50,461 bases of DNA from Phycisphaerae bacterium (GTDB taxonomy: Bacteria > Planctomycetota > Phycisphaerae > SM23-33), in the NCBI GenBank assembly GCA_003551645.1, contig PUND01000114.1:1-50461 (forward strand), written 5' to 3'. Every line of letters begins with the position of its first letter. The first letter of the stretch is position 1. Shown here piece after piece: positions 33,175 to 45,307 of the stretch. The translations under genes were made by a program, and so were the position numbers. The notes below the pieces were generated by a model. That model saw only the letters and a list, made by a program, of their open reading frames with translations, was not told the origin of the DNA and made no database searches.

Positions 33175-33403
33175 CGTTAGTGAGAATGCGCCGGCAGGAC
33201 CAGGACACACCCCCTTACGAAACAGATCATCGCTGGGGCGGATACGGATACACTACCTCGCGCGCACGATGGTCATCCCTGTTACCTTAGGGTTTTTGGT
33301 TTGCAAATGCCGCGTCGCCGGTCCATATAGTCAGGTCGGTAATGCGCCCGGCTTAAGCGGCCGCACAGGCGCATACGACGTGTTCAAGCCCCAGGAGGCA
33401 ATC

Positions 33404-35356
33404 ATGCCCCAGCAGCAGGCGCAACTGATGAATCTTACGGATAAGTCGCTACGCCGCACCACGCAGCGCTACGAGACCTTCTTCGGAGGCGGCGGCGGGA
33501 TGGTGGAGACTACACTGGTCTCGCTCGACCGCGCCGACTGCGACGCCGCCGACGGCCTGGCGCGGGTTACCTTCCACGAGAGTGGCGCATCCGTCGAGTG
33601 GCTGCCCGAGGCGGTCGAGCTTCCGGAGAACTGGCAGGGCTTCGACGCCCTGACTCTCTCGGCCGTCGGCGCCGACAAGCCGTTGAAGCTCACACTGACA
33701 ATACTGCACGCCCGCTGCCGGCTGGTCGAGACCGCAGAGCTTGGCGCGGGCGATGAGGCCGAACTGAACATAGACCTCATCGACCTGCCCCTTGCCGCCG
33801 GCATAAAGCCGCTCTTTGAGCCGACCGGGCTTAAGATATCGGCCGAGTGGGAAGGCGAAGGCCCTCGAAGCGTGGCACTGCGGGAGATGCGGCTGGTCCC
33901 GGCCACATCTGAAAGACCCCGACCTTGTGTGGACCGCTTCGGCCAGAGGGTCAACGGCGACTGGCCCGGCAAGGTCAGGTCCGAGGATGAACTTCGGGCC
34001 GCGGCCGAAAAGGAAGTCGAGAAGCTTGCCGACTTGTCCCCCCCTCCCGATCGCGACGCCTACGGCGGCTGGACCGGCGGCCCCGACGCGCCGCGATTTG
34101 AAGCGACGGGCTTTTTCCGCGTGGAGCAGAACGACGATGGGCGATGGTGGCTGGTGGACCCCGAAGGCAACCCCTTCATATCGGTCGGAACAACCGGCGT
34201 GCGAACCACCGACCAGACACCGGTCGAAGGCAGGGAGTTTCTGTACGAGGAGCTGCCCGACAAGGACGGGCCTTACGGCTCGGCGTGGCTGGATAAGGGG
34301 CTGAGCTTCTACAAGCTTAACGCGCTGCGCAAGTACGGCTCGCTGGAGGCCTGGCGCGACCGCGTGCTGGAGCGTTTCCGCAAGTTGGGCTTCAATACAA
34401 TCGCCAACTGGTCGGAGGAGATAATGCTCCGCCAGCAGGTGGTCCCCCACGTGCGGACGCTCAGCTCCCGCCTTGAAGGCGCCCCAATGGCGAGCCGCAG
34501 ATTCGCCGACGTATTCGACCCGAAGTGGGAGCGGGTGCTGGACGAATCATTCGCCGAGCTGGCCGCCCCGAATAAGGACGACCCGTGGCTAATCGGCTAC
34601 TTCGTGGACAACGAGATGCCGTGGCGCAATCTGCGCCTGCTGTCGGCGCCGCCGGGCGCCGCCGTGCGCAAGGCGTGGGCGGACTTCTGCCGGGAGCGCT
34701 TCGCCGACCTCCAGGAGGCGCGGAAGGTCCTGGGCGCGGAGTTTTCGGACTGGTCGGACGTCGCGGAGATGACCCAGGAGCAGATTCCCGACTCCGGCCC
34801 CGCGAGAGAGGCGATGGACGGCTTCGAGGCCGTGTACGCGGACAGATACTTCTCGGCCGTTCGCCGCATCCTCAAGAGCCACGACCCCAACCACATGTAC
34901 ATGGGCTGCCGGTTCGTAAGGCGGATGCCGGCCGAGGAGATAGTCACCGCCGCAGGGAAGTATTCAGACATCGTCAGCGTCAACTGCTACGGGCCGTATC
35001 CGCAGCGGAAGGAGTTCCAGCCGTGGCACGACGTCAGCGGCCGGCCGATACTCATCGGCGAGCACCATCTGCCGCTATGGAGCGAGCGTCAGCTACAGCC
35101 GCTATACCGGGCCTTCACACCGGCCGAACGGCGGACCGGATACGTCAAATACGTCAGCGAGTTCGTGAAGATGCCCTTCGGGCTTGGCTGCCACTGGTTT
35201 CAGCACGCCGACCAGCCGCTGACAGGCCGCTTCCAGGACGGCGAGGACCAGCCGGTGGGATTTGTCGATATCACCGACCAGCCGCACCCGGAGCTTTTCG
35301 AGGCGGCCCGCGAGGTGACCGAGAACATGTACCGCTGGCACGCCGCCAGCGAGTAG
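33404..35356 (+). CDS. GH50-like (beta-agarase-type) glycoside hydrolase
   Basis: The ATG at 33404 follows AGGAGG and gives 650 residues; the 45 upstream codons are excluded. Residues 1-175 form a beta-sandwich-like domain. The catalytic barrel begins near FFRVEQNDDGRWWLVDPEGN. The likely acid/base is Glu404 in GYFVDNEMPW, and the likely nucleophile is Glu553 in ILIGEHHLPLW. The phrase YFVDNE is what I know from GH50 agarases. No signal peptide is evident at this start, which is unusual for an agarase, so an intracellular oligosaccharide substrate is possible. Confidence 0.75.
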   Translation: MPQQQAQLMNLTDKSLRRTTQRYETFFGGGGGMVETTLVSLDRADCDAADGLARVTFHESGASVEWLPEAVELPENWQGFDALTLSAVGADKPLKLTLTILHARCRLVETAELGAGDEAELNIDLIDLPLAAGIKPLFEPTGLKISAEWEGEGPRSVALREMRLVPATSERPRPCVDRFGQRVNGDWPGKVRSEDELRAAAEKEVEKLADLSPPPDRDAYGGWTGGPDAPRFEATGFFRVEQNDDGRWWLVDPEGNPFISVGTTGVRTTDQTPVEGREFLYEELPDKDGPYGSAWLDKGLSFYKLNALRKYGSLEAWRDRVLERFRKLGFNTIANWSEEIMLRQQVVPHVRTLSSRLEGAPMASRRFADVFDPKWERVLDESFAELAAPNKDDPWLIGYFVDNEMPWRNLRLLSAPPGAAVRKAWADFCRERFADLQEARKVLGAEFSDWSDVAEMTQEQIPDSGPAREAMDGFEAVYADRYFSAVRRILKSHDPNHMYMGCRFVRRMPAEEIVTAAGKYSDIVSVNCYGPYPQRKEFQPWHDVSGRPILIGEHHLPLWSERQLQPLYRAFTPAERRTGYVKYVSEFVKMPFGLGCHWFQHADQPLTGRFQDGEDQPVGFVDITDQPHPELFEAAREVTENMYRWHAASE

Positions 35357-38001: not shown

Positions 38002-38054
38002 GCGCCGCCCGGGGGCCGGGGGGCACATTCAGCGGCGACGTTCAAATTGTCGTG

Positions 38055-41000
38055 CTACTGTCCGCCCACCGCCTCGGCCGGGCCGGTCTCGACCCGGTAC
38101 ACCTCGCCGTCGCGGATGAAGGCGGTGAAGCGGCTGCTGCGGACGGTGCTCCGCCTGCCGGTTTGCGGGTCTTCGTAATCTATCTGAGCATTGGCGACGG
38201 GCCGACCTTCACGGTATCCCCAGACAACGGCAAGGTCGTTCTCCCGGTGATACAGCAGCCGTTCGCCCTGGATATGGGCCTCGTTGATCCGGAGGTTCAC
38301 CTGCTCGGTGGCGGTGAACATATCCAGCGGTCCGACTCTCGGCCCGGCCACATCATCGGCCGCCACGGCCCCAGCCGACGGGTCTTCGGACGGCTCGCCG
38401 AATCTCGCCACCATCTGCTCGCAGGTCAGCGTGGCGTGCCGTCCGGACGGGAGCTGCTCTATGGACCACTCCGGATGCGGAATGCCCTCGAGCAGGTCGT
38501 CCCTTTCGCCGAGCGCCCGCCCGCTGAGGTGGACCATCCTCACGTTGCCGGTCATGACCACCAACCGTTCCTCCTGAGCCAGTTTCATCGACTCATCCCA
38601 GGCGAACAGGGTCTGGAACGGCCGTTCGACGCCCTCGTCACCGGCGCCGTCGTCGTCCCGCGGCGGGCGGTAATCCTCAACCAGCAGAGTGCCTGCTTCA
38701 TAGACGTCGAACTCACCGTCCGGCACGTCCAAGCTCAGGCGCGCCCCGCGAAGCTGCAACCGCTGTGTAAGCGCCTCATCCGGATCGGTCCGGCTGCTGA
38801 AAAGCAACACATCGTCCCGTGCGCGTATCAGACGAATGCTACGGTCGCTGTAGCTTTCCATGCCAAGCCCGACTCGTCCTGTCGAGGTCCTGTCCGGCTC
38901 AGCCGGCGGCGCCTCGGCCACCGTTTCGACTTCGGCAGCTTCGGCTTGCGCCGAATCCGCTTCATGGGGTTCCCCCTCGCCGGTTTCGCCTTCGGCCAAC
39001 GGCTCGTCGGTCGCTTCCGCGGGTTCATCCGGCGTCGGGGAGAAGAATATATCCATCTCTCCGCATTCCAGGCGGTCCATGTCGCTTATAAGCTCCACAC
39101 CGCCACGGAATTCCGCCAGGCCCTCGTCGTCGGCGCCGGGGCCGTAATTCATGGAATCCCGCCAACTGATGCGAACCGGGCGGGATTCGTCAAGCTCGGC
39201 CCCGCTAAGGTCCCTGTCGAACTCGAACTCCAGCACGCCGGCGCCCGGGACCATCAGCGTCCGCTCACGGTCATCGAGGTATATGGCCTCACCGGAAAGC
39301 GAGTCCCTGCCGCGGATGATGGAGGCGTTCCCGGTAAGTTCAGCCCTTTCGTCCTCCGGCCAGACCTCCAGCCGGTCGGCGGAGGCGGTACCGGGTTCTT
39401 CTTCGTCTTCGGCCGAGCTGCCTAGGACGGTAACATTGCCTTCCGCCAGCAGCCGCACCGGTTCCCTCTGAGACGAAAGCCACAGGGAGGCCCTGTCGGC
39501 TTCGATTTCGTCGTCGCCCTGTATCGCCCGAACCGAGCCGGATGCCACCGCACGTTCGACGTACAGAGAGCCACCGTTGACCCGCGCGGTCCGGACATGC
39601 AGTTCATCGCTGGTGATGAAGTCGTCCGTGTCGGCCTGTGTCAGCTCGACACCTCCGGTGAAAATCGCCTCTCGCAGCCCCCTTCGGCGTTCACCATCGC
39701 GGTCAAACGCAGCGATTACCTCCCCTCCGAAGGTGATGGCGTCGTAGTCCGTCTCGGCCGGTTGTGCTTCGGGAATATCCTCCGGCCGGTCCTCCTCACC
39801 CTCGTCCGCCAGGGCCTGCCCTGCGGAGTCCGCCGGCTGGAGTAGCCGGCCTGGTCCGGTCAGATGGGCCACTCCTCGAGCGTCGTCGAAGCGTATCCGG
39901 CGACAGGCGATTATCGCGCCGTCGTCCAGGTCCAGCCGGGCGGGAGTCTCGTCAACGCCCAGCAACCAGGCGACTCCGGCGTCCCCGTCGTGGTCATAGA
40001 CCATCCTGCGACAGGTCGCTATGTTTCCGTCGGATACCAGCGAGACCCTCTCGCCGTCTGCCTCGATAATGTAGCGGTCCGATGACGGCGTGGGCGTATG
40101 TCCCTGGGGCTGTATGACCAGCGGACCGCTCCAGAAGACCTCCAGCGGCTCGGCCTCGGTTTCATCCGGCTCCTCTTCTTCGTCTATTTCCGGCGACTCG
40201 CCCGGAGTCGGCTCGGCCGGCGTTGAGACGTCCGGTTCGCCGGGAGAGCGGAAGTCATCCGTGCCGTTGAACTGCCCTTCCCACTGGAAGGTGATGGCAA
40301 TCGTGTCCGCCCCATTAACCTGTCCCTCGGGCGAGCGGACACGTACGCTACCGGCGTCGCTGCCGTGAAAGACGGCCTGATAAATGTTCCTCGGCTCACC
40401 CTCCGGGGCATCTTGTATATCCATCTTCGGTGGAACGAACTCTGCCTCAGCCAGCTCCGTCGGCGGCGCTTCGGGCGGCATGGCGGCCGGGTCGATGTCC
40501 ACGACCGGCATGGTCGTCGGCCACAGGTCCTCCGGCAATGCCGTCAGTTTCTCCAGGTCCGGGACGGCCGGTTCGGCCTCCGGCGGCTCGTCGGTGGTAT
40601 CTTCGACCGCTGTGGAAAGCCCGGTGATCTGCCGGGCGCCCGTATAGACGGCCAGGTATTCGCCCTGTTCGATCCGCAACAGGCGAAGCTCCCTCTGCTG
40701 GCCTTCGCCAAGCCCCTCGTTCCAGGCAATGGTCAGGCCCGTGCCGAAGATATCCGCCTCCGCGGAGTAAAGCTCCACCCTGTCCTCGGTGTTGATTTCG
40801 AGCCGTTCGTTGTCGAACTCGATGGAATCGGTGTATATCCGCACCACCTCATGCAGCCGCTGATCCATGGGCGGCGGGTCCGGCTCGGTGGACTGGTCGA
40901 AGTATATCTGCACATCGCCGCTGAGCCGCCCGCTTCGGATGGTCATCCGACCGCCCGCTTCCAGGGGCTGAGCCAGTCCATGCTCTGCGGTGATGGTGGT

Positions 41001-41318
41001 CTGCTGTCCGCCGGGATGATGGAAAATCACCTTCGGTTTTTCCAGTCGGATGTTGTCGTCCGGGAGTTTTTCCCATCGAGCCGCGGTGTACAGGCCGCGA
41101 AGACTGCCCTCGTCGTCGCGATCCACGATTTCAAGGTCGGTACCGGCCGGCGCATCCAGGGGGCTGGCTTCCTGGCCCGGCTCCGAGACTTCTTCCAGGG
41201 TGTCCGGTTCACTCGGAAGTTGCCGATCCTCGCCGACCTCCTCGAAGGCGCGATAGACCAGGAATGTCATAAGCACCAGCGCGAACGAACCGACCAGAAG
41301 TAGCACGCGCCGTTTCAT
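38055..41318 (-). CDS. lptC: Giant LptC-LptA-like fusion for LPS transport
   Basis: The ATG at 41318 overlaps the kdsC stop (ATGA), giving 1087 residues, against about 190 for E. coli LptC. One membrane segment (RRVLLLVGSFALVLMTFLVY) lies at 4-23. The LptC-like part follows (LRGLYTAARWEKLPD, KPKVIFHHPGG). Several OstA/LptA-like beta repeats come after it, clearest near GNVTVLG, RAELTGNASIIRGRDSLSG and FRGGVELISDMDRLECGEMDIFF. These are separated by acidic linkers rich in Glu and Pro. In E. coli the order is kdsD-kdsC-lptC-lptA-lptB. Here lptC seems to have absorbed lptA-type modules; no lptB is in the window. It probably forms a periplasmic LPS bridge. Confidence 0.78.
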   Translation of the reverse strand: MKRRVLLLVGSFALVLMTFLVYRAFEEVGEDRQLPSEPDTLEEVSEPGQEASPLDAPAGTDLEIVDRDDEGSLRGLYTAARWEKLPDDNIRLEKPKVIFHHPGGQQTTITAEHGLAQPLEAGGRMTIRSGRLSGDVQIYFDQSTEPDPPPMDQRLHEVVRIYTDSIEFDNERLEINTEDRVELYSAEADIFGTGLTIAWNEGLGEGQQRELRLLRIEQGEYLAVYTGARQITGLSTAVEDTTDEPPEAEPAVPDLEKLTALPEDLWPTTMPVVDIDPAAMPPEAPPTELAEAEFVPPKMDIQDAPEGEPRNIYQAVFHGSDAGSVRVRSPEGQVNGADTIAITFQWEGQFNGTDDFRSPGEPDVSTPAEPTPGESPEIDEEEEPDETEAEPLEVFWSGPLVIQPQGHTPTPSSDRYIIEADGERVSLVSDGNIATCRRMVYDHDGDAGVAWLLGVDETPARLDLDDGAIIACRRIRFDDARGVAHLTGPGRLLQPADSAGQALADEGEEDRPEDIPEAQPAETDYDAITFGGEVIAAFDRDGERRRGLREAIFTGGVELTQADTDDFITSDELHVRTARVNGGSLYVERAVASGSVRAIQGDDEIEADRASLWLSSQREPVRLLAEGNVTVLGSSAEDEEEPGTASADRLEVWPEDERAELTGNASIIRGRDSLSGEAIYLDDRERTLMVPGAGVLEFEFDRDLSGAELDESRPVRISWRDSMNYGPGADDEGLAEFRGGVELISDMDRLECGEMDIFFSPTPDEPAEATDEPLAEGETGEGEPHEADSAQAEAAEVETVAEAPPAEPDRTSTGRVGLGMESYSDRSIRLIRARDDVLLFSSRTDPDEALTQRLQLRGARLSLDVPDGEFDVYEAGTLLVEDYRPPRDDDGAGDEGVERPFQTLFAWDESMKLAQEERLVVMTGNVRMVHLSGRALGERDDLLEGIPHPEWSIEQLPSGRHATLTCEQMVARFGEPSEDPSAGAVAADDVAGPRVGPLDMFTATEQVNLRINEAHIQGERLLYHRENDLAVVWGYREGRPVANAQIDYEDPQTGRRSTVRSSRFTAFIRDGEVYRVETGPAEAVGGQ

Positions 41319-41857
41319 CGTCGCTGTTCCCTTCCGGCCGGGAAGTAGCGCGACAATATGTCGTTCCACTTGCCGGCTCGTTTGAGCAGAAGTTCGATAA
41401 CTTCACGGACGCACCCGGCGCCGCCGCCGAGATGCGTAACGTAGTCGGCCATCGCGCGGACTTCCTCGGGCGCGTCGGGGGTCGTGGCCGCGAAGCCGCA
41501 CCTGCGCATCACGGGGATATCCGTCAAATCGTCGCCGACAGCCGCGGCACGCTCGGCCGGGATGTCCAGCTCGACAAGCACTTCCTCCAGCGCGGGCAGT
41601 TTGTCCTTCGCGCTGAGCCGCACCGCATCGACCGAAAGCTCCTTCGCCCGTATCTTCACCGCCGCCGAGCCACGACCGGATATGATAGCCAGCTTCCCGC
41701 CGGCCCTTTTCCAGTACTTCATGCCGGCGCCGTCGCGAGCGTTGAATACCTTGGCCTCCTCGCCGCTCGGCGAAAGTATGATGCGGCCGTCGGTGAGCAC
41801 GCCGTCAACATCCAGCACCAGCAACTCGATATTTGTGAACTCATCCACGTTCATCAT
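41315..41857 (-). CDS. kdsC: 3-deoxy-D-manno-octulosonate 8-phosphate phosphatase
   Basis: HAD-family phosphatase of 180 residues that makes Kdo from Kdo-8-phosphate for LPS. The nucleophile motif is LDVDGVLTDG (Asp16, Asp18). Other HAD motifs are IISGRGS, the Lys of AKDKLPAL, and GDDLTDIPVM. It overlaps kdsD upstream by 17 bp and lptC downstream by 4 bp, so translation is coupled. Two ATGs in a row make the exact start uncertain by one codon. Confidence 0.93.
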   Translation of the reverse strand: MMNVDEFTNIELLVLDVDGVLTDGRIILSPSGEEAKVFNARDGAGMKYWKRAGGKLAIISGRGSAAVKIRAKELSVDAVRLSAKDKLPALEEVLVELDIPAERAAAVGDDLTDIPVMRRCGFAATTPDAPEEVRAMADYVTHLGGGAGCVREVIELLLKRAGKWNDILSRYFPAGREQRR

Positions 41858-42869
41858 TGAAGGTCTTCAAAGCCAGCAGGTCCTGGACATCGATTATACC
41901 GACGGGCCTACCTTGTCCATCGAGCACCGGCAGCTCATCCACGCGATACTGGTTCAGCACCGCCATTGCTTCACTGGCCAGGTCGTCGGCGCGAACGGTC
42001 TTGGGGTCGCGCGTCATCAACTCGGCCACCGGGCGTTTTAGCAGACTCTCGGCAGGCCCGGTCAACAGCAGGCGGCGCAGGTCCGCGTCGGTGATTATCC
42101 CGCTGAGACGTCCGTCTTCATCCACAAGCAGCACCGCGCCGCTTCGGCGGGGTACGTCGCGTTCGGCCTCGACCAGCGCCTCGCCCAGCGTCAGGGAGTC
42201 GGACGCCACGTTCAGCCACTCGCCCCGGCGGAACCACATGGCCTCCCGAACCTTCAGCAGCCGCCTGCCGATCGAGCCGGCCGGGTGGAAGGCGGCAAAC
42301 TCATCCGGGGTGAAGCTGCGCATTTTCATTACAGTCAGGGCAATCGCATCGCCCAGAGCCAGCATACACGATGTCGATACGGTCGGCGCCAATCCCAGCG
42401 GGCAGGCCTCGTCCACACAGCCGTAACACACAGATACATCCGCATTACGCGCCAGCGGCGAGTCCGGCTCGGCTGTTATGGCTATCAGCGAAGCGCCGCG
42501 GGACTTGATATGGTCCAGCAGCCGCAGCAGTTCGTCGGTCTGTCCGCTGTGGCTCAGTGCTATGGCCACATCGCCGCGCTGGACTCTGCCCAGGTCGCCG
42601 TGCAGCGCCTCCACCGGGTGTAGGAAGATGCTCTGTGTTCCCGTGGAGGCGAGCGTCGCCGAGACCTTCCGTGCGACTATGCCCGCCTTGCCGATGCCGG
42701 TGAGCACAACCTTGCCGGCACAGGCGTGAACCGCGGCGGCGGCGCGAGCGAACTCGTCGCCGACCTTTTCGGCCAGTGCGGCGATGGCGTGTCCCTCGGC
42801 CGACAAGGCCCGCCGGGCGGTGTCGAGTTCCGACCGGGCGAGGTCGATTTCGTTCTGGTCCAAGCTCAA
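41841..42869 (-). CDS. kdsD: Arabinose-5-phosphate isomerase
   Basis: KdsD/KpsF converts ribulose-5-phosphate to arabinose-5-phosphate, the first step of Kdo synthesis. It has 342 residues. The SIS domain spans about 40-175 (GIGKAGIVARKVSATLAST, HGDLGRV, LSHSGQTDE). Two CBS domains are in the C-terminal part (about 215-270 and 280-338). The start appears to be TTG at 42869, with AAGGAAC upstream and no in-frame ATG nearby. A promoter TTGACC/17/GATAAT precedes it. Confidence 0.92.
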   Translation of the reverse strand: MSLDQNEIDLARSELDTARRALSAEGHAIAALAEKVGDEFARAAAAVHACAGKVVLTGIGKAGIVARKVSATLASTGTQSIFLHPVEALHGDLGRVQRGDVAIALSHSGQTDELLRLLDHIKSRGASLIAITAEPDSPLARNADVSVCYGCVDEACPLGLAPTVSTSCMLALGDAIALTVMKMRSFTPDEFAAFHPAGSIGRRLLKVREAMWFRRGEWLNVASDSLTLGEALVEAERDVPRRSGAVLLVDEDGRLSGIITDADLRRLLLTGPAESLLKRPVAELMTRDPKTVRADDLASEAMAVLNQYRVDELPVLDGQGRPVGIIDVQDLLALKTFNDERG

Positions 42870-42984: not shown

Positions 42985-43623
42985 TCACGCGGACCGTCCA
43001 TGTTCGCATTCGTCGCAAGCTTCAAATGTCGCCCGCCCGCAGCCGTCCAGCACCCTGGGACACCGCTCGTTGAGCAACATGAAGTATGGCGTCACTATCG
43101 GCTCGCCTACAAGCTCAAGCTCACGGCTGACGGCCTCTATGGCCTCCGGGGACGGACCTTCTATCTCCACGAACGTGCCCAGCAACGGCAGCTCATCCAG
43201 CGATACCTCGCAGTCGTGAAGACGCCATCGGCGACGCCGCTTCTGGATGGTCACCTTCGAGATCAGTCCGCAGGCCCGCAGAAGCTCGCCCATCGCATCG
43301 ATATCGCCGACTGTCGATTCGATTTCCTCGCGCTGCTTGGAGCCGCCGCTGTGTTGGCGCGGCCCTTTGTAGGTCAGCGAGCCGCGCGGTTCGCCGCGGT
43401 CGGCCCGCGACGATCGCAGCCGCAGTCCCCTGTCGCCACGGCTCAGATCGCCGGCGGGCGTATCGAAGAAGGTGTCGGTCTCGGTCACCTCGCCGGCCGG
43501 CTCGGCGCCGAGCGAGCTAAGCTTCGCCTCGACCTCGTCCAGGGACGCCGCCTCGTATTTGGCCTCTATCTCCGCAGGCACAGTGGCATTGTACCGTCCC
43601 AGGGCCGCAAGTTCAGCCGGCAT
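42985..43623 (-). CDS. CYTH-domain protein (class IV adenylate cyclase/thiamine triphosphatase family)
   Basis: The start at 43623 follows GGGAG and gives 212 residues; upstream ATGs lie inside the MFS gene. The family signature ExExK is EIEAKY near residue 18. Other blocks are DTFFDTPAGDL, GLRLRS, GSLTYKGPR, EEIES and GTFVEIEGPS. Members act on triphosphates or polyphosphate; the substrate cannot be read. It overlaps the MFS stop by 11 bp, suggesting co-translation. Confidence 0.87.
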   Translation of the reverse strand: MPAELAALGRYNATVPAEIEAKYEAASLDEVEAKLSSLGAEPAGEVTETDTFFDTPAGDLSRGDRGLRLRSSRADRGEPRGSLTYKGPRQHSGGSKQREEIESTVGDIDAMGELLRACGLISKVTIQKRRRRWRLHDCEVSLDELPLLGTFVEIEGPSPEAIEAVSRELELVGEPIVTPYFMLLNERCPRVLDGCGRATFEACDECEHGRSA

Positions 43624-45307
43624 TCGTGGAATCTCCCGGGCCATCCGAACCACCTTTGCCGTCACGTGGGCGTCGGTGGTGCGGTATCAGCAAGCCCAGT
43701 CCGATCAGCCGGCCCGCGAAGGCCACTCGCGGCGCCAGTATGTTGTACACGTTTCCACGGGCCAGGCGGACAATGTCGCGAACTCTGGCGGCACCCGGTT
43801 CGGACATCCGCACAGCCAGCACCAGCGCAGTCACCCTCGCAGCCAGTGACAGCACGAACGTGGCGTGCCAGTTGTTCCACAGGAACGGGCCGGCAACTAT
43901 CGGCTCCCGCTGAAGGAACTCCAAAGACTGGGCGAGCAGTCCGCCGGCCAGCCCGCCGAGCACGCCCCCGAAGCTGATAATGACGGCCTGGGCCGCGACG
44001 TAGCGGCTTCGGCCGGGACCATCGGCGAAGCCCATCATGATGCCCTCGCGCGCCAGGTTGATGCCCGTCCAGCCGGTTCCGCCGATGAGGACCGACACGG
44101 ATATTATCAGCCAGGCCCCCATCGGCGTGGCTTCCCCCACTGGTTGCCAGTCCCCGCCGAACAACCCCGAAAGCCAGGCAGCGGCCGCGTTGACGGCATC
44201 GGCCAGCCACTGCGGGTTCGGCGTATGCGGCGACGCCAGCAGGTGAGGCAGGTCCGAAAAGACGATGCAAACGCACGCGATGATCAGCACCGGCCGCCGG
44301 CCCCAGCGGTCTATGGTCCGGCCCCATATCAGCGTGGAGGCGATGCCCGCCAGCGGACCTATGACCAGGAACAGCCCGTCGGCGCCGAGCTGGCCGAATC
44401 GAAGATTCTCCAGACAGTTCCGCCAGAAAAACGCACCCGCGCTGGTCATGGCGAAGGAGGCCACAGCGTAGAAGCCGGCCACCTGCCGGAACTGCTTGTC
44501 TCGCAACGGGGCTATCAGCAATGTCTCGGTTTGGCGCCACAGACCGCCGATTGCTCCACCGGACTTGCTTGCGGCGGCTTCCTCAACGCTCTGCGCGGGC
44601 CTGGGGGCACAAGGAAGTGGACGGAAGACCTCGCGCATTTTGCGGAACAGTAGTATATCGATCGCGCCGAAGACCGCGCCGATGGCGAAGACGATAGAAA
44701 TGCCCATCAGCAGCGGCCTCTGGTGTTCGGCCGTCAGCGGCAGGTCCGGGCGCATCAGCCGGTCCATACCCCAGGCCAGCACGATGACCGCGGGTATGTG
44801 CACCGCCTGGGTGATGCGCACCCGGTTTGCGAGGAACCGCCCGCGGACTCGCCGTGGGATGATGTCGCCCATCCACATCAGCCATGCCGGCGTCGCCAGA
44901 TGCGACAGGAACCAGCTAAGCGTCAGTATTCCCAGCATGGTCAACACGGCCGCCCTGGAAGGCACGGGCATTATAAGCGGCACCGCCGCCACGGCGACCC
45001 ACAACAGACGGTGGATGGTTGCGCACTGGAGGAACTGGAACTTGCGCAACCCGGTCCGCTCGATGAGCATAGCCGCGGCCAGTTGGGCCAGAGTCGCCAC
45101 AAACGGCAGGGCCGCCAGCACCCCGAATTCAAAATCGCTGAAACCAACCATTCTGGCGAACAGCGTGATGCGGCTTCCGGTCACGCACGTCATCCAGACG
45201 ATGCCGTACATCCATGCGATGATGACCGTCCGCAAGGCCCGTCGCAGTTGCGGACCACGGACGCTGAGCGCCGGCAGTTCGTCGAAGGTTTTCCTGCGCC
45301 AGCTCAT
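43613..45307 (-). CDS. Major facilitator superfamily transporter
   Basis: The 564-residue membrane protein has about twelve hydrophobic segments, in two halves separated by a polar loop (about 215-265, with PAQSVEEAAASKSGG). The cytoplasmic loop motif after segments 2 and 8 is only partly kept (GRTIDRWGRRPVLI in the second half is clear). A long loop near 375-400 (SPHTPNPQWLADAV, SGLFGGDWQPVGE) is unusual. The substrate is unknown. It shares an overlap with the CYTH gene downstream. Confidence 0.85.
   Translation of the reverse strand: MSWRRKTFDELPALSVRGPQLRRALRTVIIAWMYGIVWMTCVTGSRITLFARMVGFSDFEFGVLAALPFVATLAQLAAAMLIERTGLRKFQFLQCATIHRLLWVAVAAVPLIMPVPSRAAVLTMLGILTLSWFLSHLATPAWLMWMGDIIPRRVRGRFLANRVRITQAVHIPAVIVLAWGMDRLMRPDLPLTAEHQRPLLMGISIVFAIGAVFGAIDILLFRKMREVFRPLPCAPRPAQSVEEAAASKSGGAIGGLWRQTETLLIAPLRDKQFRQVAGFYAVASFAMTSAGAFFWRNCLENLRFGQLGADGLFLVIGPLAGIASTLIWGRTIDRWGRRPVLIIACVCIVFSDLPHLLASPHTPNPQWLADAVNAAAAWLSGLFGGDWQPVGEATPMGAWLIISVSVLIGGTGWTGINLAREGIMMGFADGPGRSRYVAAQAVIISFGGVLGGLAGGLLAQSLEFLQREPIVAGPFLWNNWHATFVLSLAARVTALVLAVRMSEPGAARVRDIVRLARGNVYNILAPRVAFAGRLIGLGLLIPHHRRPRDGKGGSDGPGDSTNAG

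Follow-up and report, generated by a model that had tools for sequence, protein, structure and literature searches.

On the reverse strand of the window analysed here (a whole contig of 50,461 nucleotides, PUND01000114.1, from a Phycisphaerae bacterium), the gene at 38055..41318 encodes a protein of 1087 aa that is an LptC-containing fusion and not a plain LptC, the latter being a single domain of about 180–250 aa. Taking together the open reading frame, the family matches, the relatives and the AlphaFold2 (AF2) and Foldseek results, we consider it likely that lptC has here become naturally fused to tandem lptA-like repeats, the product taking on the roles of both LptC and a set number of LptA subunits. 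In the mechanism that we propose, the N-terminal helix would act as the inner-membrane anchor, LPS or another Kdo-containing glycolipid related to it would pass from LptB2FG to the LptC domain, and the grooves of the repeats would then conduct the acyl chains towards outer-membrane LptD. The repeats may stack as one continuous groove, and the chain presumably binds LPS and docks directly on LptD with no other protein completing the bridge; a single chain anchored in the inner membrane would thus make up the periplasmic LPS bridge largely or entirely.

The gene is the last of a kdsD-kdsC-lptC operon, with all three members on the same (-) strand. Upstream of it lie kdsC, for Kdo-8-phosphate phosphatase (41315..41857, TIGR01670 at 157 bits, above the cut-off), and kdsD, for a KpsF/GutQ arabinose-5-phosphate isomerase with a SIS and two CBS domains (41841..42869, TIGR00393 at 266 bits, above the cut-off). 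This confirms the order recognized by the sequence-only reading as that of Escherichia coli up to lptC, as well as the more than fivefold excess in length (1087 aa versus about 190 aa in E. coli). The ATG start at 41318 overlaps the kdsC stop codon as ATGA, the pattern expected of translationally coupled genes. The open frame extends upstream to a GTG at 41369, and the ATG is preferred because of this overlap and its agreement with the N-termini of relatives. The downstream neighbour is a convergent recG, and the E. coli order therefore stops where lptA and lptB would come. A 457-aa ORF opposite the long gene (38052-39425, +) is regarded as spurious. Elsewhere in the window, a gene for a CYTH-domain protein (42985-43665, -; PF01928, 3.5e-23) immediately precedes kdsD in the same orientation, and a 695-aa protein with a glycoside-hydrolase-type look (33269-35356, +) gave no Pfam match at E<=0.001.

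The chain begins with a predicted membrane anchor helix (residues 2-27, 41238..41315, -), which has the best hydropathy window (2.17); no window exceeds 0.82 past residue 40. The LptC domain follows (residues 58-224, 40647..41147, -), identified by PF06835 (residues 63-197, E=5e-5, 23.4 bits versus a cut-off of 21) and by the LptC equivalog TIGR04409 (40.3 bits versus 38), both matches lying within residues 59-198. It aligns at 96.7% in hhalign with the LptC part of relatives of ~660 aa from other planctomycete families. Beyond it, an acidic, proline-rich linker (residues 231-309, 40392..40628, -; 25% acidic, 20% Pro) with pLDDT <50 over most of its length leads into the repeats. A phmmer search of the whole protein against PDB sequences gave no match.

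Four repeat units were delimited, all of them on the (-) strand and all within the LptC chain and not in a separate soluble periplasmic protein with its own signal peptide. The most LptA-like is unit 2 (residues 520-703, 39210..39761), which contains the PF03968 (LptD_N/LptA) match at residues 589-684 (E=1.8e-16, 60.8 bits versus a cut-off of 20.4); the LptA equivalog TIGR03002 scored 49.6 bits, under its cut-off of 71.7. In hhalign comparisons unit 2 reached 94% with proteobacterial LptA and 97% with unit 3 (residues 705-890, 38649..39206), which itself reached 84% with LptA and includes a disordered acidic linker at 765-814. Unit 4 together with a C-terminal cap (residues 895-1087, 38058..38636; 11 strands between 901 and 1078) gave 97.8% with unit 3, 90% with unit 2 and 36% directly with LptA. 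Units 2-4 are thus mutually homologous at 90-98%. Unit 1 is the weakest (residues 300-515, 39774..40421); its beta strands, at 310-345 and 392-495, are interrupted by an acidic linker (349-391), and it gave 92% with unit 3, 60-70% with units 2 and 4, and no match in a direct hhalign comparison with proteobacterial LptA. The inputs were parts of a 15-protein alignment from the order and, on the LptA side, four alphaproteobacterial LptA proteins; controls (column-shuffled alignments and KdsD) stayed at <=1%. The linkers contain 24-40% Asp+Glu, and the net charge of the whole protein is -136. Both the OstA/LptA-like beta repeats and the acidic linkers described in the sequence-only reading are therefore borne out, the former by PF03968, hhalign and Foldseek alike.

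An AF2 model computed from a shallow alignment (24 sequences) had a mean pLDDT of 74.6 and a pTM of 0.60. Beta structure was predicted at residues 58-224, 310-345, 392-495, 525-759, 828-882 and 901-1078, a confident beta-rich architecture well past residue 250, and pLDDT fell below 50 in the linkers at 29-51, 231-294, 349-386 and 765-814. Foldseek with the whole model against the PDB retrieved LptD (E down to 5e-8), LptH/LptA (TMt 0.69-0.71 over about 130 residues) and LptC (3my2, TMt 0.68), and a 706-aa homologue gave a similar AF2 model. The model has 43 strands after the LptC domain; LptA of E. coli has 16, which gives about 2.7 LptA equivalents, so the four sequence repeats do not amount to four whole LptA units. 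The units are homologous and in tandem, with a pTM of 0.60 and linkers of up to ~80 residues that leave their stacking unfixed, and linkers of that length could interrupt the groove.

The source genome is a draft of 2.83 Mb in 150 contigs, 93.9% complete. Its single LptC match and its single LptD_N (LptA/OstA) match both fall in the long ORF, and the OstA_2 profile had none across the genome. With PF03968, OstA_2 and a profile of repeat unit 2, no separate lptA was found in this 93.9%-complete assembly. The usual partners are encoded on other contigs: one LptB match above the cut-off, an LptF-LptG pair of 597 and 458 aa (G000:C65, L047:4771-7951) and a LptD of 960 aa (G000:C100, L048:1267-4149). 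LptF and LptG of E. coli have roughly 360 aa each, and further Lpt parts may be enlarged here as well. The N-terminal part of LptD is long and escapes PF03968 and the repeat profiles. The repeat units gave no match when set against individual sequences of LptF, LptG and the N-terminal part of LptD, which reflects the limits of the profiles and not the absence of these domains. Since the LptD N-terminus was missed in this way, a divergent separate LptA could be overlooked too. The sequence-only reading had taken the enlarged LptC as a single covalent bridge. The presence of LptA-like repeats and the lack of a detectable lptA beside lptB, lptF, lptG and lptD agree with it; that a continuous bridge replaces the LptC-LptA oligomer is something that we infer.

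These detection limits are what lend some weight to another explanation, that the fusion makes up just the inner-membrane half of the bridge, the remainder being supplied by a divergent LptA encoded separately or by an extended N-terminal part of LptD. A 960-aa LptD with a long N-terminal part that the profiles do not see shows that the limits are real, and E. coli bridges tolerate monomeric LptA (PMC5575297). However, three profiles found no separate LptA in the source genome or, apart from one marginal match, in the rest of the order, and each such LptA would have to evade profiles that do detect the repeats of the fusion; we regard this explanation as unlikely. It seems much less probable that the repeats are a scaffold or tether whose acidic linkers bind, for instance, peptidoglycan or cations, while LptC alone transfers LPS. 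The linkers are indeed strongly acidic and disordered, and a model with a pTM of 0.60 does not fix the continuity of the groove, but the only homology found for the repeats is to LptA, and no other LptA was detected that could cross the periplasm.

The layout of the chain also recalls TamB and YhdP, in which a single inner-membrane-anchored beta chain spans the periplasm, and a TamB/AsmA-like bridge might carry phospholipids instead of LPS. Against this, the family matches are to LptC and LptA, the high-probability PDB matches are Lpt proteins, the gene is located in a Kdo operon and lptB, lptF, lptG and lptD are present in the genome, all of which makes a phospholipid bridge highly improbable; the likeness to TamB/YhdP is by analogy only, these belonging to another family with another cargo and giving no sequence or fold match to the 1087-aa protein. 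Finally, the genome being a draft, an assembly or frame error might have joined lptC and lptA, or lptC might be read through by chance. Such an artefact, to which we attach practically no credence, is refuted by the many other genomes in which frames of 1044-1255 aa are intact. The reading that we prefer remains the natural fusion of LptC with LptA-like repeats.

A homologue was present in 34 of the 38 genomes of the order, with intact full-length frames of 1044-1255 aa that align from end to end at 27-35% identity and have invariant residues throughout. LptD_N gave exactly one match in each of 25 of these 38 genomes, always inside the long frame, and the unit-2 repeat profile matched in 33, only in the long ORF except for one marginal match (E=0.025). 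The kdsD-kdsC-long lptC order is kept in relatives. Named loci in further assemblies were gathered through the kdsD neighbour; among those from Phycisphaerae and Sedimentisphaerales, complete genes following kdsC encode proteins of 680-1147 aa. In a wider set of 292 genomes from the phylum, 61 had LptC matches; the frames holding them measured about 520-1751 aa in most cases and 178-410 aa in a few. Most of the 292 had no match to either profile family searched; presence throughout the phylum is likely. The length comparison over planctomycetes thus shows a long gene that is widespread in the phylum and not peculiar to the source genome, and the LptC-LptA fusion is probably lineage-wide and ordinary within Planctomycetota.

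Several of these relatives deserve description. In two families (f47, possibly anammox bacteria, and f76; loci L066-L073) kdsC is followed by a ~660-aa LptC with 2-4 LptA stretches, which occupies the same operon place and has the same order of LptC domain and LptA-like stretches as the 1087-aa protein, but is shorter, with shorter linkers and LptA repeats that are easier to detect; at these loci it precedes a glycerophosphodiester phosphodiesterase-like gene. The longest LptC-matching frames, 1751 aa (match at G247:C24:69574-69735) and 1700 aa (match at G307:C12:155619-155792) in family f37, could be still longer fusions. At one locus (L104:7358-12265) kdsC is followed by an LptC-like frame of 828 aa, and the protein encoded next, of 806 aa and unmatched in Pfam, may be a further bridge protein or one resembling LptD. 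In another relative (L063:7502-9907) kdsC and the long lptC come immediately after lptD, the outer-membrane partner being there linked to the fusion. A few relatives (L058, L063) have extended N-termini, which probably come from reading the overlapping kdsC sequence upstream in a different frame and were left out of account.

In the phyla checked outside Planctomycetota, LptC and LptA are separate, as in Rhodospirillales (L113; LptC 245, LptA 277 and LptB 269 aa). Ignavibacteria (L110/L115) have an enlarged LptA-like protein of 459-461 aa with OstA repeats in a kdsD-lptC-lptA-lptB operon, but their LptC is a gene of its own (177-179 aa). The planctomycete protein shares with E. coli LptC (PF06835, TIGR04409) the N-terminal inner-membrane helix, the beta-jellyroll and the place after kdsC, but runs on into LptA-like repeats. 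These are homologous to E. coli LptA and Pseudomonas LptH (PF03968, TIGR03002) by profile and by fold (TMt about 0.7), yet LptA and LptH are separate secreted proteins forming head-to-tail oligomers, whereas here several units are contained in one membrane-anchored chain.

In E. coli, the jellyrolls of LptC, LptA and the LptD N-terminus join, the number of LptA molecules being unsettled; bridges tolerate monomeric LptA, and a bridge with one LptA has been estimated at 16 nm for a periplasm of 21 nm (PMC5575297). If each of the 1.7 extra LptA equivalents of the planctomycete chain added perhaps 4-5 nm, the resulting span, in the low twenties of nanometres, would be close to that of the E. coli periplasm, and a wide periplasm therefore need not be invoked. 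The suggestion in the sequence-only reading that the long chain might suit an unusually wide periplasm found no support, as about 2.7 LptA equivalents roughly fit 21 nm and the lengths of relatives vary widely (~640-1750 aa). Planctomycetes can have an enlarged, variable periplasm (PMC5394234), and one might speculate that flexible linkers let the chain follow such variation.

A survey from 2022 described the Lpt system of Planctomycetes as "largely reduced" (PMC8871954), and a study from 2012 took only LptD, BamA and TonB as markers (PMC3422733). A search covering open-access literature turned up no account of LptC and LptA naturally fused in one protein, and the novelty of the fusion is provisional. 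An LptA hidden inside a divergent LptC may explain the "largely reduced" set (PMC8871954). Both the number of LptA per bridge and whether bridges are stable or assembled on demand are unsettled in E. coli, and a one-chain bridge offers a fixed stoichiometry to measure, together with a natural length series, in frames of about 640 to 1750 aa, for comparison with membrane spacing. The LptC-LptA and LptA-LptA interfaces targeted by thanatin-type peptides would be covalent in the fusion. More tentatively, and as a generalization that we find about as plausible as it is doubtful, perhaps slightly less so, most Planctomycetota may build the bridge as one covalent LptC-LptA chain, its length differing between lineages, and lack free LptA altogether; the gene would then fix length and stoichiometry, which might track the distance between the two membranes.
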